Of a stretch of DNA of 64,000 bases, positions 5,959-54,767 are shown one piece after another; position 1 is the stretch's first letter; each line of letters begins with the position of its first letter. Under the pieces are notes generated by a model that saw only the letters and a program-made list of their open reading frames with translations, did no database searches and had not been told where the DNA came from. The stretch is from Gemmatimonadaceae bacterium (GTDB lineage Bacteria > Gemmatimonadota > Gemmatimonadetes > Gemmatimonadales > Gemmatimonadaceae). Where the stretch lies: NCBI GenBank assembly GCA_035606695.1, contig DATNEW010000041.1:124001-188000 (forward strand), read 5' to 3'. A program made the position numbers and the translations under genes.

Positions 5959-7181
5959 CAGACGGCGGCTCCGGCGGCGGCAGGCTCGTGGCCGGTCACG
6001 CCCGTTACACCGGTCATGGCCGCGAGTATCCGCCCGGCGCGCCGCGCCGCTTCGGCGATGCGCTCCGGCGACGTGATGAACGAGATGCGGAAGAATCCTT
6101 CCCCGCCCGCGCCGAAGCCCGATCCCGGCATGACGACCACCCCTTCCTCGTCGAGCAGGCGATCGGCGAACGCCGCGCTGGCGATTCCCTCGGGCAGCGG
6201 AATCCACAGATACATCGTGGCGCGCGGCGTTTCACAGTCGAAGCCCGCGGCGCGGAACGCCTGGACGGCGGCGTCACGCCGCGCCTGGAACGTGGCGAGA
6301 TTGCCCGGCAGAAATTCGTCGTAGCTCTCGATGGCCGCGACGCCCGCCGCTTGCACCGCCATGAATTGGCCGGTGTCGGTGAACGACTTGACCTTGGTCA
6401 GCACCGACGTGATCTCCGGCGCGGCGGCGGCCCAGCCGCAGCGCCAGCCGGTCATATTGTACGTCTTGGACAGCGAATGGAACTCGATCGCGACGTCGCG
6501 CGCGCCGTCGATCTCGAAGATCGACGGGGGCACATAGCCGTCGAACGCGAGCTCGGAGTACGCGTTGTCGAACACGAGCAGAATGTCCCGCTCGCGGCAC
6601 TGCCGCACGATCCGCTCGAGATAGTCCCGCGGGGCGATCGCCGCCGTCGGATTATTCGGATAATTTAAATAAAGAACTCTCGTCGAGCGCAGGACGTCGG
6701 CCGGGATCTCGTCGAGATCGATCAGGAAGTTCGTGCGCGGCCGCAACGCGTAGCGATACGGCGTGCCGCTCGCGAGCATCGTTCCGCCCTGATAGGCGTT
6801 GTACCCGGGCTCGGGGATGATGGCCGTCGTCCCCGGCTCGAGATACGCGAGCGCCAGGTGCGAGATGCCTTCTTTCGAGCCGATGAGCGGCACGATCTCG
6901 GTCATCGGATTGAAGGAGAGCCCGAAGCGCTTCTGCATCCACGCGGACACGGCCTCGCGATAGGCCACGAGGCCCATTCCGAAGCCGTAACGTTGCATCG
7001 CCGGCGTTTCCGACGCCTTGGCCAGCGCCGCGATCGCCTTGGGCGGCGGTGCCAGGTCCGCATCGCCCGCGCCCAGGTCGATGACGTCGACGCCGCGCGC
7101 GAGGAGCTCGCGCTTCTTCTGCGGTATCGTCGCCAACGGATACTCGGGCAACGTCTGAAAACGACCGGCGAGCTTCGGCAC
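5958..7181 (-). CDS. PLP-dependent class I/II aminotransferase (DapL / aspartate aminotransferase-like)
   Basis: Transfers an amino group using pyridoxal phosphate in the cytoplasm. 407 residues with the fold type I landmarks: NYPNNPTA (residues 173-180), FDNAYSE with Asp205 and Tyr208, and the Schiff-base lysine Lys239 in HSLSKTYNMTGWRCGW. The N-terminus (YPLATIPQKKREL, then DLGAGDADLAPP) is closest to LL-diaminopimelate / alanine-type aminotransferases. Substrate is not determined; lysine biosynthesis (DapL) is one possibility but no other dap gene is nearby. The start is GTG at 7181, sharing its G with the TAG stop of the FAH gene (TAGTG). Confidence 0.88.
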   Translation of the reverse strand: MPKLAGRFQTLPEYPLATIPQKKRELLARGVDVIDLGAGDADLAPPPKAIAALAKASETPAMQRYGFGMGLVAYREAVSAWMQKRFGLSFNPMTEIVPLIGSKEGISHLALAYLEPGTTAIIPEPGYNAYQGGTMLASGTPYRYALRPRTNFLIDLDEIPADVLRSTRVLYLNYPNNPTAAIAPRDYLERIVRQCRERDILLVFDNAYSELAFDGYVPPSIFEIDGARDVAIEFHSLSKTYNMTGWRCGWAAAAPEITSVLTKVKSFTDTGQFMAVQAAGVAAIESYDEFLPGNLATFQARRDAAVQAFRAAGFDCETPRATMYLWIPLPEGIASAAFADRLLDEEGVVVMPGSGFGAGGEGFFRISFITSPERIAEAARRAGRILAAMTGVTGVTGHEPAAAGAAV

Positions 7182-7798
7182 TACGCGTCCTTGGCGACTG
7201 GGTTCTTCACACGGCTCACGCCGACGATCTCAACTTCTACCTCGTCCCCCGGCGAGAGTTTCCCCACGCCGGCCGGCGTACCCGTGCAGACGAGATCGCC
7301 CGGCTCGAGTGTCATCACGTTCGAGATGTAGGCGAGCACGTCCGGAATGGAGAAGACCATGTCCGATGCCTTGCCTCGCTGACGTTCCACACCGTTCACG
7401 CGTGTCACCACTTCCAGGTCACGAAAATCTGCGGGGGGAGCCGCCGGTTCCCCGATGGGACAAAAGGTGTCAAACCCCTTGGCCCGCGTCCACTGCGACT
7501 CGGCGCGCTGAAGATCGCGTGCGGTCACGTCGTTGACGGCCACGACGCTCTGTATGGCCCCGCGCGCGTCCTCAGAGTTTACGCGCCGCAGACGCTTTCC
7601 GATGATCACCGCGATCTCGCCCTCGTATTCGATCTGCTGTGATTCAGGCGGCAACACGATGGAATCGCCGTTCCCGATCACGCTCGAGGGCGGCTTGAGA
7701 AAAATTAGTGGCTCTTTCGGAACATCATTGCCCAGTTCCTTGGCGTGGTCGACGTAGTTGCGGCCGACACAGACGATCTTGCCCGGACGATTAGCCAT
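7181..7798 (-). CDS. fumarylacetoacetate hydrolase family protein
   Basis: 205 residues, the single-domain FAH form. It begins IVCVGRNYVDHAKELGN, typical of FAHD1-type acylpyruvase / oxaloacetate decarboxylase and 2-hydroxyhepta-dienedioate isomerase relatives. The metal-binding acidic cluster EYEGEIAVIIG (Glu59, Glu61) and VVAVNDVTARDLQ are present, and the C-terminal LEPGDLVCTGTPAGVG loop is conserved. The actual substrate cannot be fixed from sequence. The ATG at 7798 is preceded by GTGAGGAACA, a ribosome-binding motif supplied by a dispersed repeat that fills the gap to the helicase gene upstream. Confidence 0.9.
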   Translation of the reverse strand: MANRPGKIVCVGRNYVDHAKELGNDVPKEPLIFLKPPSSVIGNGDSIVLPPESQQIEYEGEIAVIIGKRLRRVNSEDARGAIQSVVAVNDVTARDLQRAESQWTRAKGFDTFCPIGEPAAPPADFRDLEVVTRVNGVERQRGKASDMVFSIPDVLAYISNVMTLEPGDLVCTGTPAGVGKLSPGDEVEVEIVGVSRVKNPVAKDA

Positions 7799-7842
7799 TG
7801 TTCCTCACCTGGGCGTTACGCGCCTGCGCTCGGAATTCCGCG
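7799..7842 (-). repeat. 44-bp intercistronic repeat, diverged copy (family 2)
   Basis: In the minus direction the element runs from a CGGAATTCCG palindrome to GTGAGGAACA. It matches the two perfect copies at 53981-54081 at both ends (TTCCTCAC... and CGCTCGGAATTCCGC) and diverges in the middle. It occupies nearly the whole space between the dinG-like gene and the FAH gene, and its end doubles as the ribosome-binding site of the latter. Confidence 0.8.
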
Positions 7843-7852
7843 TTTCTGAGGA

Positions 7853-10351
7853 TCATTGCTGGTAGAAGGAGTTGATGGTTTCGAGGAGCTCGGTCCAGCG
7901 TCCCACGATGCGCCGCGCCGGCGGCAGGCCCTCCAGCAATCCGCGGCCGTAATTCTTCGTCACGACACGCGGATCGGCCAGCACCACGACGCCCCGATCG
8001 GCCGCGGTGCGCACGAGACGGCCAAAGCCCTGCTTCAATCGTAACGCGGCGTGGGGCAGCATGTATTCCTTGAACGCATCGCCGCCGCGCGACTCGATCG
8101 CCTCGCAGTGCGCGGCCGTGATCGGCTCGGTCGGCACGCGGAACGGCAGTTTCGCGATCAACAGCGCCCGCAATGCGTCGCCGGGTACGTCCACCCCTTC
8201 CCAGAACGACGCGGTGCCGAGCAGGACGGCGCCGCCCGAATCGCGAAAACGCGCGAGCAGTTGGTCGCGCAATTCTTCACCGTGCACCAGGAGCGGCCAG
8301 CGGCGGTCGGCGCCCCGCGCCCGCAGCTCGCTCGCCATCGCGCGCACGTCCTTGTGGCTGGTGAACAACACGAACATGCCGCCGTTCGCCGCGTTGGCGA
8401 GATCGAACGTCGCACGCGCGACGGCGGCAAAATGTGAACTCGGATTCACATTTGGCGCGGGGATGTCGCTCGGGATGGCGAGCAGCGCCTGATCACGATA
8501 CTTGAATGGCGATGGAAACACGCCGGTGCGCGGCTCGAGCTCCGGATCGTTCAGGCCGAGCCGCGCGCTCAGGAAATCGAACTTGCCGTCGGCCGTGAGC
8601 GTGGCGCTCGTCACCACCGTCGTCTCGGCGCGCTTGAACAGATCCTCGCGCAGAATCGGCGCGAGATCGAGCGGCACGGTGGAGACGCTGACGGCGCGAT
8701 CGCGGCCCTTCGCTTCAATCCAGCGAACCGTGCCCGCGCCGGGACCAGGATCGAGTGCGGCCTTGAGACCATCACCCGCCAATTGCAGCCGGCGCGTGAC
8801 GGCGCGCATCTCGTTCAACAGCGGCATCACGGAATCGTCGGGCCGCTTTCCTCCCTCGATGCGCTCGCGCACGAGCTGCAATCCTTCGGCAAGGAGGTCG
8901 ATCTCGTTCGTCGTGTCCTGCAGCGCGACGCGCAAGCCGGCGCGCCAGATCGGATGGCCGGCAAACTCCTCGGTGAGCCGCACGACGGACTCGCCGCTCT
9001 CCTGCAGGAACGTATCGAGCAGATCGAAGAGCAGCGCGCTCTTGTCGCGCACCGCGTGCACGCCCGGCGACAATCGCGAGCCGACGAGATCGAGACTGGC
9101 GACGCTGAGCAGATCGTTCGACGACGACAAGCGCGCGATCAGTGCGCTGAGCAATCCCTTGCCGCGGCGATCGAGCCGATTGAACAGTCGCTGCAGCGAA
9201 CGGCGAGACACCGTCGAGCCAAGGTGCGCGGCGGCGGCATCCTCGAGATGGTGGCCTTCGTCGATCACCAGTCGGGTGTACGCGGGCAGCACCGCGGCTT
9301 CGCCCCAGTTGCCCGACACGCGCCGCACCGCGAGATCAGACAGCAGCAAGTGATGGTTGACGACGATCACGTCCGCTTCCGCCGCCTGCTTGCGCGCCTG
9401 AAACAGGAAGCACTTCGAGTACACGGGACAGCGCGCGCGCTGGCAGATGTCCGGCTCGGCCGACACTTCGTCCCACACTTCGGCGCGCGGGGCGACCGTG
9501 AGATCGCTCAGCGAGCCGTCGCGCGTGCGCTCCGACCATTGCTGAATGGCGTCGAGCTCCTGCTGCAGCCCGTCCTCGAACAGCGCGTTGCCGGAGGCGC
9601 GCGCCTGCTCGAGCCGCACGAGGCACAGATAGTTGCGCCAGCCCTTGAGCAGCGCGAAGCGCACCTTCTGATCGTCGAGCGCGCGGGCAAGAAACGGCAG
9701 ATCCTTGCCGACGAGCTGCTCCTGCAGGTTGATCGTGTTCGTTGACACGATCGTGCGCTCGTTGTTCGCGTGTGCCCATCGGAGCGCCGGAACGAGGTAG
9801 CCGAGCGATTTGCCGACGCCCGTTCCTGCCTCGAGGAGCGCGACGCCGCCGTCGTTGTAGGCGCGCGCGATTTCGGCGGCCATGGCGCGCTGGCTTGGAC
9901 GGTCCTCGTACCGCGCGTGCTGGCGCGCGATGAGCCCATCAGGTCCCAGATCACGCGCGATGGCGTCCGGCGCGATGGACGATAGCGAGCGCGCCGCCGG
10001 CACTTCGACGACGACATACAGCTCGGTTGCGCCGTTGTCGACGATCGCGAACCCAATCCCGTCGTCGTGAAGTCGCGCGGCAACATCGAGGTCGGGCCCC
10101 GATGGCGAGAGGTTTCCCGACGGGTGGTTGTGGATGAGCATCTCGCCGCGATTGGCGAAGCCGGGGAGCGCGAGCACGCAGCTCGAATCGCCGCGCGCCA
10201 CCGTGCGAACCGTCTGCACGACGCCTTCGCCGTCGATGGAGCCGACGAAGCACACCTCGCGGCCGCCTGCCAGCCGAATGGCCGCGCGAACGGCGACGGC
10301 AGCCTTGGGGCTCAGCCGGGCGGCTGGATCGGCTGCGACGGAGGGGGGCAT
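7853..10351 (-). CDS. DinG/XPD-type Fe-S DNA helicase with N-terminal RadC-like JAMM domain
   Basis: 832 residues from the ATG at 10351. Residues 1-120 resemble the RadC/JAB fold, with a complete JAMM-type metal motif HNHPSGNLSPSGPD (His74, His76, Ser84, Asp87). The rest is a superfamily 2 helicase of the DinG/XPD group: Walker A LEAGTGVGKS (about 173-182), a cysteine cluster (CLVRLEQ... and ICQRARCPVYSKC) for a 4Fe-4S centre, the DEAH box VIDEGHHLEDAAA, and motif VI QGFGRLVR. It probably unwinds damaged or structured DNA, R-loops or stalled forks. An open frame continues upstream to 10441, but 10351 fits the JAMM domain start better; no clear Shine-Dalgarno supports either. It is first in a four-gene minus-strand run. 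Confidence 0.9.
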   Translation of the reverse strand: MPPSVAADPAARLSPKAAVAVRAAIRLAGGREVCFVGSIDGEGVVQTVRTVARGDSSCVLALPGFANRGEMLIHNHPSGNLSPSGPDLDVAARLHDDGIGFAIVDNGATELYVVVEVPAARSLSSIAPDAIARDLGPDGLIARQHARYEDRPSQRAMAAEIARAYNDGGVALLEAGTGVGKSLGYLVPALRWAHANNERTIVSTNTINLQEQLVGKDLPFLARALDDQKVRFALLKGWRNYLCLVRLEQARASGNALFEDGLQQELDAIQQWSERTRDGSLSDLTVAPRAEVWDEVSAEPDICQRARCPVYSKCFLFQARKQAAEADVIVVNHHLLLSDLAVRRVSGNWGEAAVLPAYTRLVIDEGHHLEDAAAAHLGSTVSRRSLQRLFNRLDRRGKGLLSALIARLSSSNDLLSVASLDLVGSRLSPGVHAVRDKSALLFDLLDTFLQESGESVVRLTEEFAGHPIWRAGLRVALQDTTNEIDLLAEGLQLVRERIEGGKRPDDSVMPLLNEMRAVTRRLQLAGDGLKAALDPGPGAGTVRWIEAKGRDRAVSVSTVPLDLAPILREDLFKRAETTVVTSATLTADGKFDFLSARLGLNDPELEPRTGVFPSPFKYRDQALLAIPSDIPAPNVNPSSHFAAVARATFDLANAANGGMFVLFTSHKDVRAMASELRARGADRRWPLLVHGEELRDQLLARFRDSGGAVLLGTASFWEGVDVPGDALRALLIAKLPFRVPTEPITAAHCEAIESRGGDAFKEYMLPHAALRLKQGFGRLVRTAADRGVVVLADPRVVTKNYGRGLLEGLPPARRIVGRWTELLETINSFYQQ

Positions 10352-10467
10352 ACACCCGAAAATTAACCGATAGCGCACCTCGCAGATAGCGTGATCTGCC
10401 CATGTCACGACGGACGCGGCCGTCCGACTATTCCGCATCACTCACCGGTTCGATGCCGGAGGAAATC

Positions 10468-12714: not shown

Positions 12715-14442
12715 CTAATTCGGCGGAATGGCGGCTTTCGCGAGATCGAGCTCGCGCCGCGCCTGAGGCACGAGCGCGCTGCCCCCGTAGGTGAGAATCA
12801 AATGCTCGAGGTGCGCGGCGGCGCCGGACGCGTCGCCGGCGCGGCGCAGCGTTCGCGCCCACTCGAGCTCGGCCTGCGGTGCCTCCGGAGAGTCGTTCTC
12901 GGTGTCGAGAATGCGCTTCCACAGCGCGATGGCGTCAGCGTCGTTGCCGCGCCGCGACTGAATCTGCGCGGCGCTGAGAAGCAGGAGCGAGCGAACGACG
13001 GGCGTTTTGTCGGCGGCGTCCACGAACTGGGCGGCCGCCGCGGTGCTATCGCTTCGCGCGAGCGCGAGGAACGCCTTGCCGATCGCCGGGGCCGTGTCCG
13101 CCTTGATGCGCGCGATGAGCGCAAGCGCCATCGCAAGCTCGGGTGAGCTCTCGGTGCCGCCGCGCAGCAGCACACGGGCCGTTTTCAGATTCCCTTCATA
13201 CAACGCGAGCCAACCCGCCGCGTCGCTCGAGTCGCCCTCGGCTCCCGTCGCCGCCAAGGCGGCGCGCGCGCGATTCATGTCGCCGGTGCGCACCCAGCCC
13301 CAGGCAATCGTGCGAATCAGCGAGTTGTGCGCGCCGGGCGAGATGAAGCGATCATACGCCGCCACCATGCGCTCCGCTTCCGCCGGCCGGCCGAGCGACG
13401 ACAGCGCGCGGGCATAGAGCGGCACGTAGGATTTGGCGATGAGCGCCGAGTCACCGTTGGCATCCGCCAGCGGTGCGAGCCGGAGCGCGGCCGCCGCGTC
13501 GCCGCCATTGAGCGCGGCCGTACCGGCGCGCAACGCAACGTCCGGCGTGTGCTTCCAGCGCAATGCCGCCTCGAGCGCCTCGCGGGCGAGCGTCCAGCGC
13601 TCCTCCGATTCGGCGCGCTTGGCGAACTCCGACCACGCATCGGCCGCGGCGCTGTCGGGCGGAATGGACTTGAGCGCATTCCAGCCGTCGCTCGCCGATC
13701 CCCAACTGGTCTCGAGATCCGCCAGCGCGCGTCGCGAGGAGACTTCGATCGGCAACGAAAGAAAGATCTCCCGCACCTGCGGTCGCGACGACATCGGCGT
13801 CGGCGCGAGCGCGTATGCCGCGGCCTGCTCGAGGTAGTCCGCCTTGATGAGCGCCTGGCGCCATGCCTGCGCCGATTCGACCCACTGCCCCTGCGCGGCG
13901 CGCGCTTGAGCAACCTCTAATTGCAGATCTTTAGTCGATCCAAGCGTCATGTTCGCGCGCGCGAGCACGCTGTCGGCGGCCGCGGAGCGGTTGCGCTGCA
14001 GCAGCAAGTCGGCGTACTCGCGGTACGGCGACGGACTGTCCGGCACGTCGTGCACCCACTTGTCGAACGCCGCGCGCAAGGCGGCCTCGCGGCCGAGCGA
14101 TTGCAGCGTGCGCAGCTGTACGGTGCGATACGTCTCTTCGTGCGGGTTGGACGCGATCAACGTATCGAGCGTGGCGACGAGCGAGTCGGACTGGCCGATC
14201 TCGGCGAGCACTCGTTCCAGACCGAGGAGCGCGTTGACGCTGGCGGGCGTATGCAGCGCGACGCGAAAGAGCGGCGCCGCCTCCTTGTACTTGCCGGCGG
14301 CCTCGAGATCGAGGGCCTTGTAGAAGGCCATCGTGTCGGCGGGCGCTTGCGCGGCGATGGTCGGTGGGCGGCGGGCGATGGGCGCAATGCCGATGGCGAC
14401 CATGAGAAGCGAGCGCCGAACGCGCGCGGCGTTCACGCCCAT
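12715..14442 (-). CDS. exported tetratricopeptide-repeat protein
   Basis: 575 residues. An N-terminal signal peptide (RVRR, then SLLMVAIGIAPIA, cleavage near IAAQ) precedes many alanine-rich helix pairs typical of TPR repeats (EAAGKYKEAAPLFRVAL near the N-terminus, QSRRGNDADAIALWKRIL and LRRAGDASGAAAHLEHLIL near the C-terminus). TPR proteins scaffold protein complexes; partners are probably the DUF4175/DUF4159 membrane proteins encoded just upstream. The ATG lies inside the G-rich arm of a heptamer repeat element, and the C-rich arm encodes signal-peptide residues 21-32 (PIARRPPTIAAQ). The start is therefore uncertain: Met14 is an alternative, but it would leave no basic n-region. Confidence 0.8.
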   Translation of the reverse strand: MGVNAARVRRSLLMVAIGIAPIARRPPTIAAQAPADTMAFYKALDLEAAGKYKEAAPLFRVALHTPASVNALLGLERVLAEIGQSDSLVATLDTLIASNPHEETYRTVQLRTLQSLGREAALRAAFDKWVHDVPDSPSPYREYADLLLQRNRSAAADSVLARANMTLGSTKDLQLEVAQARAAQGQWVESAQAWRQALIKADYLEQAAAYALAPTPMSSRPQVREIFLSLPIEVSSRRALADLETSWGSASDGWNALKSIPPDSAAADAWSEFAKRAESEERWTLAREALEAALRWKHTPDVALRAGTAALNGGDAAAALRLAPLADANGDSALIAKSYVPLYARALSSLGRPAEAERMVAAYDRFISPGAHNSLIRTIAWGWVRTGDMNRARAALAATGAEGDSSDAAGWLALYEGNLKTARVLLRGGTESSPELAMALALIARIKADTAPAIGKAFLALARSDSTAAAAQFVDAADKTPVVRSLLLLSAAQIQSRRGNDADAIALWKRILDTENDSPEAPQAELEWARTLRRAGDASGAAAHLEHLILTYGGSALVPQARRELDLAKAAIPPN

Positions 14443-14466
14443 CGCCCAGCGCCCATCGCCCAGCGC
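14347..14466 (-). repeat. heptamer (GCGNTGG)n hairpin element, copy A
   Basis: Read on the minus strand, the DUF4175 stop codon TAG is followed at once by GCGCTGG GCGATGG and a second GCGCTGG GCGATGG pair (14434-14466). About 50 bases later comes a complementary C-rich arm (14347-14383) built of CCCATCG/CCCACCG-like heptamers. The C-rich arm lies within the TPR gene and is translated as part of its signal peptide. Confidence 0.85.
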
Positions 14467-17400
14467 CTACGGCGTCCCAGCATTGATCTTCTTAAAGTAC
14501 TCTAATATCGCGCGCCGCTCGTCCGCGCTCAGACCGCGCAGCTCGTCCCACGTGGGCTCGCGGAACTTCGTGGCGGCGCGGCCGCTGGCGTTCGTGTTGT
14601 CGGGCTTGAGCTCATTGCCGCCCTTGGCGGACGTCGCCTCGCGCTTCTTGTCGTCGTCGCGTTCATCCTTCTGCAGCGACCGGCCGGCATCGAGCAAGCG
14701 GCGGAACAACTGCTGTTGTCTCGCGATCGTCGTCGCGTCGAGGCGGCCGCCCTCGAGCGCTTCGGCGAGCTGCTTTGCTTCCTTCGCGAGCTGCGCGGCG
14801 CGATCGCCGCCGACGCCTTCACCCAGTTCATCGAGTTGCTGCGAGACCTGACGCTGTTCGCGGGCGAGCGCCCGCGCGGTCGCTTGCATCTGCGACGACA
14901 TCGGCTGGCCCATGCCGGGCATGAGTCCCTGGGCCTGCGCGTTGATCGAGCCCTGCTTCTTCGCCATCTCCTGCAATTGCTGCATCATCTCGGCGAAGCC
15001 GGTCGCGGAGCTCGAGGTGTTGGCCTTTTCGCGATCGCGCGCAAGCGACGCCGCGGCGCGATTCAACGCGTCGGCCGCGTCGCTCATCGCGCTCGCGGCT
15101 TGCTGGCCACTGCGCGAGTCGGCGGTGGATTGCATCGCCTCGGACACCTTCTGTTGCGCTTCGCTCACCGAGCGTTGCGAGCGACCGGATAGCAACGACG
15201 TTTTCTGGCCTTCCTGCTGAAGCTTCTGCGCCGAGTTGTCGAGTCCTTGCTTTACCGCGCTCTGTTCGCCGCGCAGCTCTTCGGGCTTCGCCTGGCCGGA
15301 GCGCGCCTTCTGCTCGAGCTGCTGCTCTTGCCGTGCCATCTGAAGCATTTCCTGCACGGCTTGATCGAGCGCGTTAGTGAGCTCGGACTTCCATTCGTTG
15401 ACTTGTGACTCGCGCGCATCCTTCATGGCTTGCGATGCGCGGTCCATTTGGGAGGCAGCGTCGCGTGCGTTTTGTTCGACGCCTTGCTGGCCTTGCTGGC
15501 CTTGCTGGCCTTGCTGGCTTTGCTGTCCCTTCGCGTTCTGTTGTTGGCCGTTCTGTTGTTGACCGCTTTGTTGCTGGCCGTTCTGTTGTTGGCCGTTCTG
15601 TTGTTGACCGTTTTGCTGCTGCCCTGATTGTTGCTGTCCGCTCTGCGGCTTGGCATTCTGGGGCTTGCCGGTCTGCTGCTGATTGCCGGCTGCTTGCTGT
15701 TGCTTCGGATCCTTCCCGCTCGAGCGCAGCGCTTCCTCGGCGGCATCGGCGTGCTTCTGTGCTTCCTTCGCGCCCGAGGCCCCCGCATCGGCCTTGTCCT
15801 TCTCCAGGCGATCCTGAAGCTTCTTCACTTCGTCGGAGAAGCGTTGCGACCGATCCGCGAGATTCTTCGCATCCGACTTCTGCTCGTCGCTCGGCTTCGC
15901 CGATGCCGAGTCGGCGAGCTTGCGATCGTGGTCGGCGATGTCCTTCGCTTCGTCCTTGAGCGTCTGCATCGACCCTTCGAGCGCGGCACGCTTGAGCATC
16001 TCCGCGCTCTTCTCGAGCTGCTCGCGAAGCTTCTCCTGCATCGCCTGCAGGTCCTTGAGCGATTGCTGCGATTGGTCGCGCGAAAGCTGTTGCGTCGCGT
16101 TGTCGAGTTTCTGCATCTGCGCCAACAATTCCGGCGACAATGCGTCGCGGAGGAGCGCCTGCGCTTCCTGGAGCTGGCGCGCCAGGCTGCTGTCGAGAGC
16201 GCCCGCCTGCTTGAGCTGATCCTCGAGCGCTTTGGCGGTTTGCTGCAGCTGCTTCACCTGATCGGCCAGCGCGCGCTGATCCTTCGCCACGGCTTTCGCC
16301 TTCTCGGCGGCGTCGTAGCTCATGTTGCCTTTCTGATCGCCGGCACCGCTCGCATTGCTCGGCATGTCGTTCGGGCTGCGCTGCGCGCGATCGCGCGCGG
16401 CATCGCTCGTCCGCTGCTCGAGCGACTTCTCCGCGGCGGCGGCCGAACGCGCCTGACTGACGGCCGAATCCATCGCGTCGCGCGCGATGGCGCGGCGCTC
16501 TTCCATCGTGGGAATCTTGAGCAGCAGCTCGCGGCTCTCGCCGCGCTGCGCCCAGGGCGAGTTGTCGACGGCGACGATCTTGACGTGCAAGGCGTCGCCT
16601 GGCTTGAGGGCGCGCGGCGCGAGATCGAGGATTGCCGTGCCATCCCACACGTTCGTCAGCGCATCGGCGATGCGCTGAGTGATCGCCGTCTGCTGGCCAC
16701 CGGTGCTTCCCTGCTTCCAGCTCATGATTTCCACGCGCGCGAGGCCGTGATCGTCCGAGGCGGTCGCGCGCAACGGAATGCGATCGTCGCCCGCGACGAG
16801 CGTGTCGGTCGCCGGAGAAACCAGCTCGACTTTCGGCGCCGAATCCGGCACGACCTCGAGGTCGATCGGTTGCGGCACGTCGGCGATCGGGCCCGACGCG
16901 CCGGTCGCGAGCCACGCATACTTCCCGCTCTTCGTCGGTTGCATGCGCCCGGCGAACGAATGGTCGTTCACGCGCAGCGCGACCGTGTCGCTACCGTTGC
17001 CCAGTCGAACGTCGCGCAGCGCGGTCGATGCGCGACCGCTGATGTCGATGACGGTTCCCTGTGGTACGCGCACCGCATCGCCGACGGCAAGCGCCTCGGC
17101 GGCGCGACCGAGATACGCCGGATAGACTGCGCGCATCTGCACCGCGCCAACGAACGGGCGGTCCGTAACCCGTACGACCGCGGTGTCGCTTCCCGACCGT
17201 CCGTCACTCGCGACGATCGTCAGGTCGCCGCGCAGTGGACCAACCTCGGCCACGCCAAGTCCGTTGCGATCGACCGCCACGGACTGCGTCACCCACGCTT
17301 CGCCGGGAATGCGCTGCGTCAGCGTCACGCTGCCGCGATGCGGCGCCGCGATTTGGAGTCGAACCGACTCACCACGCAACACGGCGGGCGGCAAGTTCTG

Positions 17401-20578: not shown

Positions 20579-20694
20579 CGCGATGGGCGATGGGGGATGG
20601 GCGATGGGCGTGGAATTCAAAGGGCGACGGATTTTTCTCCGTCGCCCTTTGCCGTTCCGCCCAACGCCCAACGCCCAACGCCCATCGTCCATCG
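20579..20694 (-). repeat. heptamer (GCGNTGG)n hairpin element, copy B, with inner hairpin
   Basis: On the minus strand the trxA stop is followed directly by CGATGGACGATGGGCGTTGG and further GCGTTGG units (20658-20694). The complementary C-rich arm lies at 20579-20613. Between them sits a separate 13-bp perfect hairpin (AAAGGGCGACGGA with TCCGTCGCCCTTT, 20618-20650). The whole could fold as one long stem with an inner stem. Confidence 0.88.
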
Positions 20695-26625: not shown

Positions 26626-26630
26626 TCGCG

Positions 26631-26713
26631 CATTGCGCTGGGCGCTGGGCGTTGAGCGATGGGCGTTGCACGGCGCTCCGAACCACGCCCAACGCCCAGC
26701 GCCCAGCGCAATG
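26631..26713 (+). repeat. heptamer (GCGNTGG)n hairpin element, copy C, perfect 24-bp inverted repeat
   Basis: The 24 bases at 26631-26654 (beginning CATTGCGCTGG) are an exact reverse complement of 26690-26713, with a 35-nt loop that contains two further GCGNTGG-type units. It lies between tRNA-Gln and prs. As RNA the stem would be extremely stable and could separate or protect the tRNA transcript. Confidence 0.95.
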
Positions 26714-26757
26714 CCCTACCGTAACTCTTTCCCTTTATTTAGCTTAATGGGCTCCGC

Positions 26758-27900: not shown

Positions 27901-28560
27901 ATGGCAACTGTTTCCCTGAGCGCTCAGGTGCGCACCGAGACCGGCACGGGCGTCGCACGCAAGCTCCGCGTCGCCGGCCAGGTTCCCGCCGTCATCTACG
28001 GCCACGGCCGCGCGCCGCAGTCCCTCGCCATCAACACCCGCGAGATCGAAAAGCTCTTGAGCACCGTGTCGGCCGGCAGCACCGTGATCGAGCTCGGCGT
28101 CGACGGCCGCACGGCCCGCACGCTGATCCGCGAGATCCAGCGCCACCCGACCAAGCGCAGCATCGTCCACGTCGACTTCCAGGAGCTCGTGGCCGGTGAG
28201 AAGATCACCGTCAGCATTCCGCTCCGCTTCACCGGCACCGCCGACGGCGTGCGCAACTTGGGCGGCATTCTCGAGGAAGTCATGCACCAGGTGCACCTGC
28301 GCCTGGATCCGGCGAGCATCCCCGACCACGTGGACGTAGACGTCACGCCGCTGACGATCGGTCACAGCATCCACATTCGCGAGTTGAAGCTGCCCGAAGG
28401 CGTCACGGTGCTCGACGATCCGGGCGCGACGGTCTGCGTCTGCACCGCGCCGAAGGCGGAAGTCGCCGCCGTCGCGGCGGAAGGCGTCGAGGGCGCCGCC
28501 GTGCCCGAGCCGGAGCTCATTCGCAAGCCCAAGGCTGAGGGCGAGGAAGAAGCGAAGTAG
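27901..28560 (+). CDS. rplY: 50S ribosomal protein L25 (general stress protein Ctc form)
   Basis: Binds 5S rRNA. 219 residues, the long CTC form with an N-terminal L25 domain (GVARKLRVAGQVPAVIYGHG) and a C-terminal TL5-like beta domain (VHVDFQELVAGEKI, then HIRELKLPEGVTVLDDP). It ends in an acidic/alanine tail. It forms the classical prs-rplY-pth-ychF series with its neighbours. Confidence 0.95.
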   Translation: MATVSLSAQVRTETGTGVARKLRVAGQVPAVIYGHGRAPQSLAINTREIEKLLSTVSAGSTVIELGVDGRTARTLIREIQRHPTKRSIVHVDFQELVAGEKITVSIPLRFTGTADGVRNLGGILEEVMHQVHLRLDPASIPDHVDVDVTPLTIGHSIHIRELKLPEGVTVLDDPGATVCVCTAPKAEVAAVAAEGVEGAAVPEPELIRKPKAEGEEEAK

Positions 28561-28569
28561 CGCTCGGTG

Positions 28570-28660
28570 CCGGGCGCTGGGCGATGATCGCCACGCGATT
28601 TCGAGCGCTTCTGTCCGCGCTCTTCACTCGCCCAACGCCCAGCGCCGAACGCCCATCGCC
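28570..28660 (+). repeat. heptamer (GCGNTGG)n hairpin element, copy D
   Basis: Starting ten bases after the rplY stop, the G-rich arm GCCGGGCGCTGGGCGATG (28570-28587) is followed about 40 bases later by the C-rich arm CGCCCAACGCCCAGCG and further CCGAACG/CCCATCG units (28629-28660). The arms share an 11-base perfect complement (GGCGCTGGGCG region). The C-rich arm touches the pth start codon, so it occupies the place of a Shine-Dalgarno motif. Confidence 0.82.
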
Positions 28661-28661
28661 A

Positions 28662-29237
28662 ATGAAAGTCATCGTCGGCCTGGGCAATCCGGGCAAGGAA
28701 TACGAGCGCACGCGACACAACGTCGGCTGGTGGGTGGTCGACCACCTCGCCGACGTTTGGCGTTTCGACGGATGGAAGAAGGACGGCGAAGCGCGCGTCG
28801 CGAACGGCACGCTCGGGAACGTGAAGGTGCGGCTGGTGAAGCCGCAGACCTACATGAATCTGAGCGGGCAGGCGCTGCGCCCCTATGCGCGGCGGCCGTT
28901 CTGGTCGGCGGCGACCGATCTGATCGTCGTCGTCGACGAAGTGCAGCTCCCGATCGGACGCTTTCGCTTTCGCGCGAAAGGAAGCGCCGGCGGGCACAAC
29001 GGCCTCAAAAGCATCGAACATCATCTCGAAACGCAGGATTACTCGCGCCTGCGCATTGGCGTGGGGCCCGAGGAAGGCCGTGAGCGCGGCGCCATTCTCA
29101 GTGACTACGTGCTCGGCGACTTCGGCAAGCACGACGCCGAGGTGGTGCGGAATCTCCTGCCCGAGCTGACCGAGGCGCTGGAGGTGTGGGCGAAGGACGG
29201 TATCACGCCGGTGATGAACCGATTTCCCGGTCATTAG
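28662..29237 (+). CDS. pth: peptidyl-tRNA hydrolase
   Basis: Releases tRNA from prematurely dropped peptidyl-tRNA. 191 residues. MKVIVGLGNPGKEYERTRHN gives the N-terminal signature with His19/Asn20; KPQTYMNLSG and GSAGGHNGLKSIE are conserved. The start ATG 28662 is set by the family; an in-frame extension to 28584 would translate the C-rich repeat arm. No Shine-Dalgarno is possible because the repeat abuts the ATG. Confidence 0.96.
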   Translation: MKVIVGLGNPGKEYERTRHNVGWWVVDHLADVWRFDGWKKDGEARVANGTLGNVKVRLVKPQTYMNLSGQALRPYARRPFWSAATDLIVVVDEVQLPIGRFRFRAKGSAGGHNGLKSIEHHLETQDYSRLRIGVGPEEGRERGAILSDYVLGDFGKHDAEVVRNLLPELTEALEVWAKDGITPVMNRFPGH

Positions 29238-38236: not shown

Positions 38237-38283
38237 GTTCTTCGCTGCGGCGCTTCGCGCCGCTCGCACCACCGCTCGGAATA
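38237..38283 (-). repeat. 44-bp intercistronic repeat, diverged copy (family 2)
   Basis: GTTCTTCGCTGCGGCGCTTCGC followed by ...ACCGCTCGGAAT resembles the 53981-54081 copies, with an extra internal CGCTCGCACC segment and a degenerate end. It lies between DUF2232 and rplI but in the opposite orientation to transcription, so here it cannot provide a ribosome-binding site. Confidence 0.6.
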
Positions 38284-39270: not shown

Positions 39271-42200
39271 GCGTTGGGCGTTGGGCGCAGGGCGCTGGGC
39301 GGATCGTCTCGGCCAGCGTCTGGCGAGCAGTGCTCATCGGCATACTGGTTTTGCCCATCGCCCAGCGCCCATCGGCCATCGCGGCCCAGAATTACTTCGG
39401 CCAGAATCAAGTCCAGTACGACACGTTTCATTGGCAGATTCTCGAGACCGAACACTTTCAGATTTACTACTATCCGGATGAGGCGCGCGCAGTCAACGAC
39501 GCGGCGCGTCTCGCCGAGCGCGCGTACGCGCGCCTGTCGCGCGTGCTGGACCATCAGTTTCGCGAGAAGAAACCGATCATGCTCTTCTCGTCGCGCACCG
39601 ATTTCGGGCAGAACAACGTCACCGGCGATCTCGGCGAGGCCACGAGTGGAGTGACCGAGGCCATGCGCCATCGCATGCTCCTCAACTTCACCGGCGACTA
39701 CAAGAGCTTCGAGCACGTGCTCACGCACGAGATGGTGCACGCATTCCAATACGACATCTTCGCGCACGGCAAGGCGGGCAACGGGCTGCAGGCGCTCGCG
39801 CAGTACATGCCGCCGCTCTGGTTCGCCGAGGGGATGGCGGAGTATCTGTCGCTCGGTCCGAACAGCACGGTGACGACGTCGTGGATGAGGGACGCGGCGC
39901 TCAACGGCCGCATTCCGACGATCAAGGAGCTGACCGACGATCCGGACAAGTACTTCCCGTATCGCTACGGCCACTCGCTCTGGACGTTCATCGGCCAGAA
40001 ATGGGGCGACGAGGTCATCGGCCAGATCATGAGCTCCGTGCCGGCGGTCGGAGTCGAGCGCGCGTTCCGGCGCGAGCTCGGCATCACGCTCGAGGATCTT
40101 GGCGAAGAATGGCGCGAAGACGTGCAGACACGCTTGTTGCCCGCAGTGGCGACGCTCGACCGGCCGCGCAAGTTCGCGCAGCCGCTGTTGAACAAGGAGC
40201 GGAGCGGCGGCGACGTGTTTCTGGCGCCGACGCTCTCGAGCGATGGACGCACGATCGCGTTCCTGTCGAACGGCAGCGTGCGGCGCGGCGAAATATTCAT
40301 CGATCTGTGGCTGGCCGATGGCGAGAACGGCCAGCGCCAGGGCCGGCTGGTCAAGAGCACGTTCAGTCGCGACTTCGAGGAGCTGCGGCTGCTCTACGCG
40401 CAGAGCGCGTTTTCGCCGGACGGCCGTTACCTCGCCTTCACGGCGCAACAGCGCGGCCGCGACGTGCTGTACATCTTCGACGTCGCGTCGCGGAAGGAAG
40501 TGCGCCGCCTCGACAAGCTGGGGCTGGAGTCGGCGACGAGCCCGAGCTGGTCGCCGGACGGAAAGCAGCTCGTCTTCAGCGGCAATCACGGCGGAATTAC
40601 AGATCTTTATATAGTAAATACTAATGGCACGGGGCTGCGCAAGCTCACCGACGACCGATTCGGCGAGCTGCAGCCCCAGTGGTCGCCGGACGGCCGCACG
40701 ATCGCGTTCGCGACGGACCGCGACAGCGCCAACCTCGCCCTGCTCCGCTTCAAGCCCTGGCGCATCGCGCTGCTCGACCTTGCCTCCGGAATCGTCAGCG
40801 TGCTCCCCGGGCAGAGCGGCCTCAATCTCAATCCGCAGTGGGCGCCCGACGGCAAGTCGATCGCGTACGTGTCCGACCGATCCGGCTCGCCGAACATCTT
40901 CCTGTACGACCTCCCGACGCACGAGCACTTCCAGCTCACGAACGTCGTCGGCGCCGTCTCGGCGCTGACCGAGTACAGTCCGGCGATCACGTGGGCGAGG
41001 CAGGCCGACCGTCTCGCCTTCACGTACTTCGATGACGGCGAATACACCATCTGGAGCGTCAACAACCCGCGCGCGCTGAAGCGCCTGCCGTACCAGGATC
41101 GGCCGGCGACCGTCGTGCAGACCGGAAGCGACAGCGCGTCCAAGGCCGTGTCGATCGTCGCGCTGCTCGATTCGTTCAGCCTCGGTCTTCCCGACACGAC
41201 CAGGTTCCGCACCGCGCCGTATCACGTGCGCTTCCAACCCGACTTCTCGGCGCGGCCGAGTATCGCGTATTCACCGGATGCGTTCGGCCGGACGATCTTC
41301 GGCGGCACAACGCTCGTGATGAGCGACATGCTCGGCAACAACCATCTGGCGATCGCCGGGGAGATCAACGGGCGCATGAGCGAGGCGCGCGCGTTCCTTG
41401 GCTACACGAACATCGCGCATCGCTGGCAATTCTCCACCGGCTTGTCGCAGACTCCCTACTACTTCCTGTCGTCCGACTCGCTCTCGAGCACCGGTGCGAC
41501 CGGCCGCTCGCTCGAGAATCAGCAGATCACGACGTACGTCGCGCGCCAGGCGTTCGGCGTCACCGCGTACCCGATCGACCGATTCACCCGCATCGAGTTC
41601 GGCGCGGGATTCAACAACATCGATCGCAGCCGGTTGTTCGTCACGCGAAACCTCGTCGGTGGAACGGCGGCGACGGGCTATTCCGTCGACAGCACGCATC
41701 GCGATCCCTCGCTCAACTACATCGACGGGCAGATCGCGCTCGTCTCCGACAACACGCTCTTCGGCTACACGGGACCAGTGATGGGCCGACGCTTTCGCGT
41801 GCAGCTCACGCCGGTCGCGGGCACGTATCAATGGAAGGAATACCTCGTCGACTATCGCCGATACGATCCCGTCATCTTCAACTATCTGACGATCGCGTCG
41901 CGCCTCTACACCGACCTGTCGATCGGGCGAGACGAGGAAGCGTTTCCGAAGTACATCGCGCGGCCGGATTTCGTGCGCGGATACGATCGCAACAGCACCT
42001 TCTATCTCGCGTGCCCGGTGATCGGCGCCAATCCCACCAATTGCAGCGCGGTCCAATTGCTTGGCAGCCGAGTCGCCGTGGCGAACGTCGAGGCGCGCTT
42101 TCCCCTCGTTCGGCGCCTCGAGCTCGGCTTTCTGCCGTTCGACTTACCGCCCGTGGATGGCCTGTTTTTCTACGACGCGGGCCTCGCCTGGTCGGCTGGC

Positions 42201-52387: not shown

Positions 52388-53974
52388 TTACTTCTTCGCC
52401 CGATCCAACAACTCCCGCTCGGTCTTCGCCCCACGCGCGAACGTCACCGCGCGGGCGATCATTTGATCGTCGCGAACCCGGCGAGCATACTCCGCCGCGT
52501 CGCCGAACGCGTAGCGCGCAGTCTCGTAGCCCAGCAAGCGATCGATCAACGGCGCGGCCGTCTCGAACGTCTTGTCGTCGAGCGTCACGCCGTGCGCCTT
52601 CATGCGCGCGCGAAGCGCCGCGCGCATGGCCGGCGTCACGACAAAATCGGGTGACGTCACCGCGTGCGAGGTCTTGAGCGACAACGCCTCTTCGGTGACG
52701 GCGTCGCGGAAGCTCGGAATCTGCTTGCCCAGCCCCCGCTGCAGCGCGCTGTCCGCCGCGCTCGGCTGGGTCATCGGGACGATCACGTCGGGCGTGATGC
52801 CACCGCCGCCAAGCACGGTTCGTCCCGCGTCGGTCTTGAACGTCGGCGGCTTCTTGCTGCTCGAGTCGGCATCGCTCCCGTCGGATGCATCACGCTTACG
52901 ATTGATGCTTCGCCCCGACGGCGTGAACCACAGCGCGGTCGTCAGCTTCGCCGCGCCGCCGTTCGCCAGCTGAAACACGTTCTGCGCGCTCCCCTTCCCG
53001 TAGGTCGTGGTGCCGAGCAGCACCGCGCGGTCGTGGTCCTGGAGCGCGCCCGAGACGATCTCCGCGGCGCTCGCGGTATTGCTGTCCACGAGAACCACGA
53101 GCGGCATGCTCGGCCACGGCTGCGCTTCACGATCGTCGTACGTCGCCGTCGCCTGCGGCGTGCGGCCGCGAATCGAGACGATGCGCTGATTGGGATTCAG
53201 AAAGAGGTCGCTCACGGCCACGCCCTGCGTGAGCAGTCCGCCCGGGTCGCCGCGCAGATCGAAGATCAGCGTCTGCATGCCGGCACCGCGCAGCGAATCG
53301 ATCGCGTGGCGAAGATCCGCGGCGGACTCCTCGCTGAAGATCGTCAGCGCGACATACCCCACGCCGTTGCCGAGCAGCTGTGCGTGCTGCACGGAACGCA
53401 CGTGAATTTCCTTGCGCGTGAGTGCGAACTTGAGCGGCGTCGGAACGCCCGGCCGCTCGATCGTGACGCGAACGACTGAATTCGGCTCGCCGCGCAGCGC
53501 TTTCTGTGCGGCATCGAGCGGCGCGCCGCGGAGGTCCTTGCCGTCGACTTCCGTGATGCGATCGCCGGCCTGAATCCCGGCGGCAAGCGCCGGTCCGCCC
53601 GGAAGCGGCGCGGCGACGATCACATAGCCGTCGCGGGCGTCGACTTGAATGCCGACACCCGCGTACCGCCCGGTCGTGCGCTCGGACAGCGACGCGGCAA
53701 GCTTCGGCGGCAGGTAGTTGCTGTGCGGATCGCCCAGTTCCCCGATCAATCCCTCGGCCGCATCGCGGTAGATCGTCGAATCGCTCAACGTATCGACGTA
53801 GTCGCGCGCGACGTGCTGCATGACTTCGGCGAACATGTGCGCGCGGTCGCCGGATCCGGTCAGCGACGCGGACACGCCGGTCGCCGAGCCAATCAAGCCT
53901 CGTTCGACGAGCCAGCCACCGGAGACCAGCGCGGTGCTCAACACCGCGACGGCCAGGATCGCGCGCGATTTCAT
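52388..53974 (-). CDS. S41-family carboxy-terminal processing peptidase
   Basis: 528 residues. A single N-terminal membrane/signal segment (MKSRAILAVAVLSTALVSGG), then a PDZ domain (GVGIQVDARDGYVIVAAPLPGGPALAAG, residues about 100-185) and the S41 core with VDSNTASAAEIVSGAL (nucleophile serine) and TTYGKGSAQNVF (lysine). It degrades periplasmic proteins from their C-termini. The start is ATG 53974; the frame is open upstream but there it only translates two repeat copies (GIPSEGAKRRSEEQ twice). GAGGAACA of the repeat is 10 bases before the ATG. It follows tmk. Confidence 0.93.
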   Translation of the reverse strand: MKSRAILAVAVLSTALVSGGWLVERGLIGSATGVSASLTGSGDRAHMFAEVMQHVARDYVDTLSDSTIYRDAAEGLIGELGDPHSNYLPPKLAASLSERTTGRYAGVGIQVDARDGYVIVAAPLPGGPALAAGIQAGDRITEVDGKDLRGAPLDAAQKALRGEPNSVVRVTIERPGVPTPLKFALTRKEIHVRSVQHAQLLGNGVGYVALTIFSEESAADLRHAIDSLRGAGMQTLIFDLRGDPGGLLTQGVAVSDLFLNPNQRIVSIRGRTPQATATYDDREAQPWPSMPLVVLVDSNTASAAEIVSGALQDHDRAVLLGTTTYGKGSAQNVFQLANGGAAKLTTALWFTPSGRSINRKRDASDGSDADSSSKKPPTFKTDAGRTVLGGGGITPDVIVPMTQPSAADSALQRGLGKQIPSFRDAVTEEALSLKTSHAVTSPDFVVTPAMRAALRARMKAHGVTLDDKTFETAAPLIDRLLGYETARYAFGDAAEYARRVRDDQMIARAVTFARGAKTERELLDRAKK

Positions 53975-53980
53975 TAAAGA

Positions 53981-54081
53981 TTGTTCCTCACTGCGGCGCT
54001 TCGCACCTTCGCTCGGAATTCCGCCGAGAAAATAGGATTGTTCCTCACTGCGGCGCTTCGCACCTTCGCTCGGAATTCCGC
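53981..54081 (-). repeat. two perfect copies of the 44-bp intercistronic repeat (family 2)
   Basis: The 44-bp segment TTGTTCCTCACTGCGGCGCT...GGAATTCCGC is present at 53981-54024 and again at 54038-54081 without mismatch, 57 bases apart. It fills the space between tmk and the S41 peptidase gene. In the transcription direction each copy starts at GCGGAATTCC and ends in GTGAGGAACAA, which can serve as a ribosome-binding site. Confidence 0.95.
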
Positions 54082-54089
54082 ACAAAGAG

Positions 54090-54767
54090 TCACTCGCTCA
54101 AAAGGAAAATATCGGGCCAGCGCTCGCCGAGCGTCGCACGCAAACGCGCGAAAACCTCCGCCTCGGTTCCGCGGGCGTCCACGATCACGACCGGCCCACA
54201 CTCGGGATGCGCGCGCTGCCACTCGGGCTTGGCGAACGTGTCGAACGCATGGGCGACACGCTCGTGAAATTCAAGCTCGGCGCGCTCCATGCGGTCCCGC
54301 TCGCCGCGCTGGATCGCTCGCTCGAGTCCTTGCTCGACGGGCAGCATCAGCAGCAGCGTGAGATCCGGCTGAAGCCGCTGCGTCGCGAAAACATTCGCGG
54401 CGCTCAGCTCGTCTTCCGGCAGGCCGCGTCCAATGCCCTGATAGGCGTACGTCGCGAGAAAAAACCGATCGATGAGCACGATGGCGCCCTGGTCGAGCAC
54501 CGGCCGGATCTCGCGCTCGACCAGCTGAGCGCGCGATGCCATGAACAACAACGCCTCGCTGCGGGGGACGATGTCCGACGCGGGATCGAGCAGGATGCGG
54601 CGAATCTCGTCGCCGACGACGGTTCCCCCAGGCTCGCGCAGCGCCACCACCATCTGCCCGTGCGCGCCGAGCCATTCGGCGAGCAGCCGGAGCTGCGTGG
54701 TCTTACCCGCGCCTTCGGGCCCTTCGAGCACCACGAGGAGGCCGCGCGCCATGGTGCGCCGCGTCAC
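54090..54767 (-). CDS. tmk: thymidylate kinase
   Basis: Phosphorylates dTMP to dTDP. 225 residues from GTG 54767; ATG 54752 is an alternative. P-loop LEGPEGAGKTTQLRLLA, REPGGTVVGDEIR (DRX-like substrate loop), and LIDRFFLATYAYQGIGRGL are diagnostic. GTGA overlaps the YlbF-like stop. Part of the rpmE-prfA-prmC-ylbF-like-tmk-ctp run. Confidence 0.95.
   Translation of the reverse strand: MTRRTMARGLLVVLEGPEGAGKTTQLRLLAEWLGAHGQMVVALREPGGTVVGDEIRRILLDPASDIVPRSEALLFMASRAQLVEREIRPVLDQGAIVLIDRFFLATYAYQGIGRGLPEDELSAANVFATQRLQPDLTLLLMLPVEQGLERAIQRGERDRMERAELEFHERVAHAFDTFAKPEWQRAHPECGPVVIVDARGTEAEVFARLRATLGERWPDIFLLSE

Follow-up and report, generated by a model that had tools for sequence, protein, structure and literature searches.

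A probable REP-like hairpin element at gene junctions of a Gemmatimonadaceae genome, with a Shine-Dalgarno-like motif in its 3' arm

Introduction

Three described systems come closest to the repeat considered here. The CGTC-tagged REPs are, like our element, dispersed short palindromes with complementary stem variation and many copies, and no dedicated transposase is known for them (Di Nocera et al. 2013, PMC3733652). The GTAG REPs and REPINs with their RAYT transposases are likewise short repeats that form hairpins and are believed to be mobile as single-stranded DNA, and MITEs such as ERIC, NEMIS and RUP resemble it as non-coding repeats of intergenic regions, folded at the RNA level and able to affect neighbouring genes. 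In the open-access literature we found no published description of the element itself.

We analysed a 64-kb stretch of a Gemmatimonadaceae genome (hereafter, the window) and the distribution of the element in the whole genome (the own genome) and in relatives. We read the element, with a probability of roughly 0.7, as a REP-like variant, that is, a dispersed palindromic repeat of about 46 bp.

Results

The unit consists of a head GCGGAA, a 35-nt core and a tail CNAT(C/G)A (CNATSA). Table 1 lists its copies in the window together with the flanking genes and the other repeats discussed.

Table 1. Coordinates of the element, its neighbours and related or co-occurring repeats (window positions unless a locus handle is given)
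Feature	Position	Strand	Remarks
Element copy 1, farther upstream in the tmk-S41 gap	54036..54081	-	Hairpin core TTCC...GGAA 54041-54075; E=1.4e-15 against the family model
Element copy 2	53979..54024	-	Core 53984-54018; head-to-tail with copy 1, 57-bp period
GTGAGGAACA in element copy 2	53982-53991		
S41 C-terminal processing peptidase gene	52388..53974	-	Downstream of both element copies
Thymidylate kinase gene (tmk)	54090..54767	-	Upstream of both element copies
Diverged element copy between helicase gene and FAH-family gene	7796..7841	-	Tail provides ATG start (GAGGAACA-ATG)
Fumarylacetoacetate hydrolase (FAH) family gene	7181..7798	-	Start codon overlaps element tail
Helicase gene	7853..10441	-	Upstream of FAH copy
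Mutated element relic near rplI	38237..38283	-	25 bits; 9-nt inner insertion; antisense to flanking + genes (DUF2232 protein, rplI)
Contig-end tandem arrays of the element	L089:2-153, L121:32-189, L085:2024-2158, L133:5-106		
GTCAT-tagged REPs, own genome	L103-L117, L137 and others (e.g. L108:2012-2125)		Includes longer GTCATCCCGAGCGNAGGCGCGNAGCGCCGNAGTCGAGGGACCC form
Other dispersed GCCCATCGCCCAGCGCC-type repeat	14354-14470, 20580-20692, 26628-26717, 28560-28663, 39271-39383		Inverted arms

The first-pass annotation had reported two identical 44-bp copies before the S41 gene; they are indeed 100% identical, over a unit that is slightly longer (46 bp), and the S41 start ATG at 53974 lies 5 nt beyond the modelled end of copy 2. 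The diverged copy announced before the FAH gene is also there, 83% identical to both S41 copies. Exact matches to GTGAGGAACA occur in the window at these three copies only, and allowing up to one mismatch yields seven matches against 2.0 expected. A partial inverted copy had been placed before rplI: it is a weaker relative in which the motif has decayed to GAAGAAC, and since it lies on the minus strand and rplI on the plus strand, it cannot supply rplI with a Shine-Dalgarno (SD) sequence. That the copies read as open frames giving GIPSEGAKRRSEEQ is true of the sequence, but such a frame is merely incidental. The GCCCATCGCCCAGCGCC-type repeat is probably what had been noted as a first intercistronic repeat family. 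The window also holds a 15-bp tandem repeat inside a long minus-strand reading frame (15511-15690) and a 10-bp ACACCCGGCG tandem repeat at 2431-2500, near a tRNA (2586-2676).

Genome-wide, a strict pattern gave 27 matches and its reversed control none, and a looser one, which also picks up a sibling repeat family, gave 109 against one for the reversed control. A family sequence model recovered about 115 element-type matches, and annotation of the flanking stretches led to 81-83 sites carrying 112-117 copies, present singly or as two to four head-to-tail copies with periods mostly of about 56-62 bp. Tandem arrays of the element end several contigs of the own genome (C21, C27, C39, C47), and the assembly probably breaks at the longer arrays.

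Judged from the compared sequences, the hairpin fold of the purine-rich (G/A) strand, TTCC-GA-GC-GNA-GGYGC-GNA-GCGCC-GNA-GC-GA-GGAA, is a conserved feature, and the compensatory changes prove folding. Among 105 distinct cores, 97.7% of the pair cells are paired, and six outer pairs vary on both sides, which constitutes complementary stem variation: the outer stem alternates between TTCC/GGAA, CTCC/GGAG, TTTC/GAAA and CTCG/CGAG, with a further exchange between GC/GC and CC/GG, and pairs in 616 of 630 cells, against a maximum of 549 in 2000 shuffles. Every loop is a G.A-type motif whose G and A are conserved at about 91-95%, the N positions varying freely. The predicted RNA minimum free energy (MFE) is -14.7 kcal/mol for the G/A strand, with this hairpin as the MFE fold, versus -6.9 kcal/mol for the complement, and G-U wobbles occur in this strand-specific G.A fold. 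With DNA energy parameters the hairpin was not obtained as the minimum fold. A search of Rfam with the element returned no family at the gathering threshold (best E 4.7). The SD-like GAGGAA is the 3' arm of the hairpin; being one arm of a covarying stem, its conservation is explained by structure.

As for location, 56 of the 63 clean sites in the own genome lie between co-directional genes, 40 of them running in sense and 16 in antisense (p=0.0018). Genes were predicted with a simple codon-usage caller, so that some starts and a few neighbours are imperfect (e.g., the tRNA sites L059 and L065). The distance from the upstream stop codon to the stem is mostly 6-22 nt. The first-pass annotation had proposed a genome-wide pattern search combined with proximity to gene starts, and in the own genome its expectation was partly borne out: besides the 27 strict matches against none, a gene starts within 10 nt of the element's 3' end at 23 sites and on the other side at five. 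Its observation that the copies end in a motif at the SD position holds for the sense copies, next to which genes have a mean SD pairing energy of -6.3 kcal/mol (background, -3.8) and an SD motif in 70% of cases (background, 26%; p=4e-7), but the 16 reversed junctions do not conform, and antisense-adjacent genes have the motif in 12.5%. When the element is masked, the motif is left in none of the 17 near-sense genes. In several downstream proteins the match to the family profile runs from residue 1 or close to it, in agreement with the starts called for these genes, and the Ddl gene is preceded by a canonical GGAGGAGCA-ATG. The ribosome-binding site is thus correct as anatomy for many genes of the own genome, and may be exploited. 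The idea that the ATG at the element's end is a carried start codon was rejected, because at least nine antisense copies have it too. Gene orientation in the own genome correlates with local GC skew, so that a strand-of-replication cause is possible for part of the 40:16 bias. Element copies also lie directly 5' of tRNA-like sequences (L059:2010-2054, L065:1991-2041), where an SD is meaningless.

Relatives offer a view of such sites without the element. In four genomes of the same genus the tmk-S41 gap is short and lacks the element, and in the relative G095 the helicase stop overlaps the FAH start (ATGA), a junction that the element interrupts in the own genome. Start-like codons overlap the stop at 24 of 56 element-adjacent junctions versus 42 of 179 long-gap or non-co-directional ones (p=0.006). 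Empty sites and start-overlapping stops together support insertion into tight junctions. The FAH site resembles a CAATG target-site duplication, a candidate dropped since none is consistent across sites; matched flanks had a similarity of 4.29 versus 4.04 (sd 0.10) for mismatched pairs, a tiny difference with no fixed duplication.

The same element has multiplied in another genome of the family (G105), where its stem is of the version CTCC/GGAG, CC/GG; this second genome has at least 50 copies with a covarying stem, and its copies and flanks match the MAG Gemmatimonadetes bacterium SH_69_11. There, in a small orientation sample and with G105 77% complete, the element shows no strand preference: 7 sites are sense and 11 antisense, with 5 more between divergent and 5 between convergent genes. 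This suggests that a role at gene starts does not belong to the element as such; the two genomes differ in orientation (p=0.023) and in operon concentration (p=0.009). Across 84,980 species genomes a tight pattern had no match, and a looser one matched mainly SH_69_11, one other Gemmatimonadetes contig and one Acidobacteriota-labelled contig. The last, a 3.9-kb contig of the MAG CP_BM_RX_49, holds one copy (L211:2960-2994), by misbinning or transfer.

The own genome also harbors GTCAT-tagged REPs, which are inverted in 27 of 27 close pairs, often lie between convergent genes and fit the description of the CGTC REPs (PMC3733652). The core TTCC-GA-GC-GNA-GC-GA-GGAA is common to the element and to this local GTCATTCCGAGCGAAGCGAGGAATC family, and by this shared core sequence the element is related to the GTC-tagged REPs of the genome.

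Discussion

The best reading of these data is that the element spreads as a structured repeat rather than as a dedicated mobile ribosome-binding site, the SD-like motif being a by-product of the hairpin arm. A different force is implied by the term "mobile ribosome-binding site" of the first-pass annotation, according to which the element owes its maintenance to the SD that its 3' end offers to the genes downstream. The sense bias of the own genome, the SD energies and motif frequencies, the disappearance of the motif on masking and the canonical sequence ahead of Ddl all speak for it, but not as the defining function: 16 junctions are antisense, SH_69_11 is unbiased (7 versus 11) though its motif GGAGGAG is a better SD, most background genes of the own genome have no SD motif, and the motif is accounted for as a hairpin arm. 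We regard this explanation as unlikely. It is also improbable that the element is kept as an intercistronic mRNA hairpin for RNA stability or processing, as proposed for REPs, the bias arising since only the G/A strand folds well; the strand-specific fold with its wobbles, the nearness to upstream stop codons and the sense bias agree with this, but the antisense copies and the absence of bias in SH_69_11 do not.

The same two observations weigh against a translational-coupling or thermometer-like switch, in which the hairpin would hide the SD until the ribosome ending the upstream gene unfolds it. Covariation and the MFE fold do place the SD inside the stem, which is mostly 6-22 nt from the upstream stop, and RNA unfolding has been proposed as a coupling mechanism (PMC12548453), but the predicted SD accessibility is just mildly reduced (0.35 versus 0.46 in the background) and a modelled footprint of the terminating ribosome barely opens it (0.39). 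Simple coupling by the terminating ribosome was rejected on this fold model, and we consider such a switch very unlikely. A combined possibility, quite doubtful in our opinion, is that the lineage has turned a REP-type hairpin into a mobile module for initiation between cistrons, one that inserts at overlapping stop/start junctions, splits them and equips the downstream gene with a structure-gated SD of its own in a genome with otherwise few SDs.

The REP-like hairpin reading has its own difficulties. No transposition was observed, no target-site duplication is consistent, and DNA energy parameters give another minimum; moreover, the operon concentration and the sense bias could reflect selection for a translational role. 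The Y1/RAYT transposase (PF01797) has no match in the own genome, control genomes being positive; it is present in G105 and G041, and in the stretches covered around the Y1 loci of relatives the element does not occur.

On the preferred REP-like reading, the element would have inserted into short gaps and been tandem-duplicated there locally, with the G/A-rich strand folding into the G.A-rich hairpin as single-stranded DNA and/or mRNA. The favored conjecture for its mobilisation is a single-strand mechanism of the HUH/Y1 type, such as has been suggested for REPs. In the own genome most surviving copies sit at operon junctions; an element lodged between a stop and a start codon would do little harm there. 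In sense orientation the 3' arm GAGGAAC lands at the SD position, probably serving several genes as their SD, and we infer that this service, itself a by-product of the hairpin sequence, favors the retention of sense copies in the own lineage.

The genome thus offers a natural sibling pair built on one hairpin core, a classical inverted-pair REP and an untagged head-to-tail form between operon genes. Their comparison could show what sets the survival sites of REP-like elements, and if the translation of operons is rewired by them. Annotators should also take warning, since the element has an SD-like motif and, in many copies, an ATG at which no gene starts.

Compared with the known systems, the element differs from the CGTC-tagged REPs in having no terminal CGTC/TGTC/CCTC tag (each position of its head GCGGAA agrees with the consensus in 66-77 of 79 sites), an extra inner hairpin and a tail CNATSA instead of CCA; it lies at operon junctions, and in the clusters seen it is single or head-to-tail, not in head-to-head inverted dimers. 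Unlike MITEs, it is shorter, with neither proper terminal inverted repeats nor a consistent target duplication. With respect to the GTAG REPs and REPINs, its flank profile has no GTAG tag, it forms no inverted pairs, and its own genome has no RAYT (Y1) transposase.
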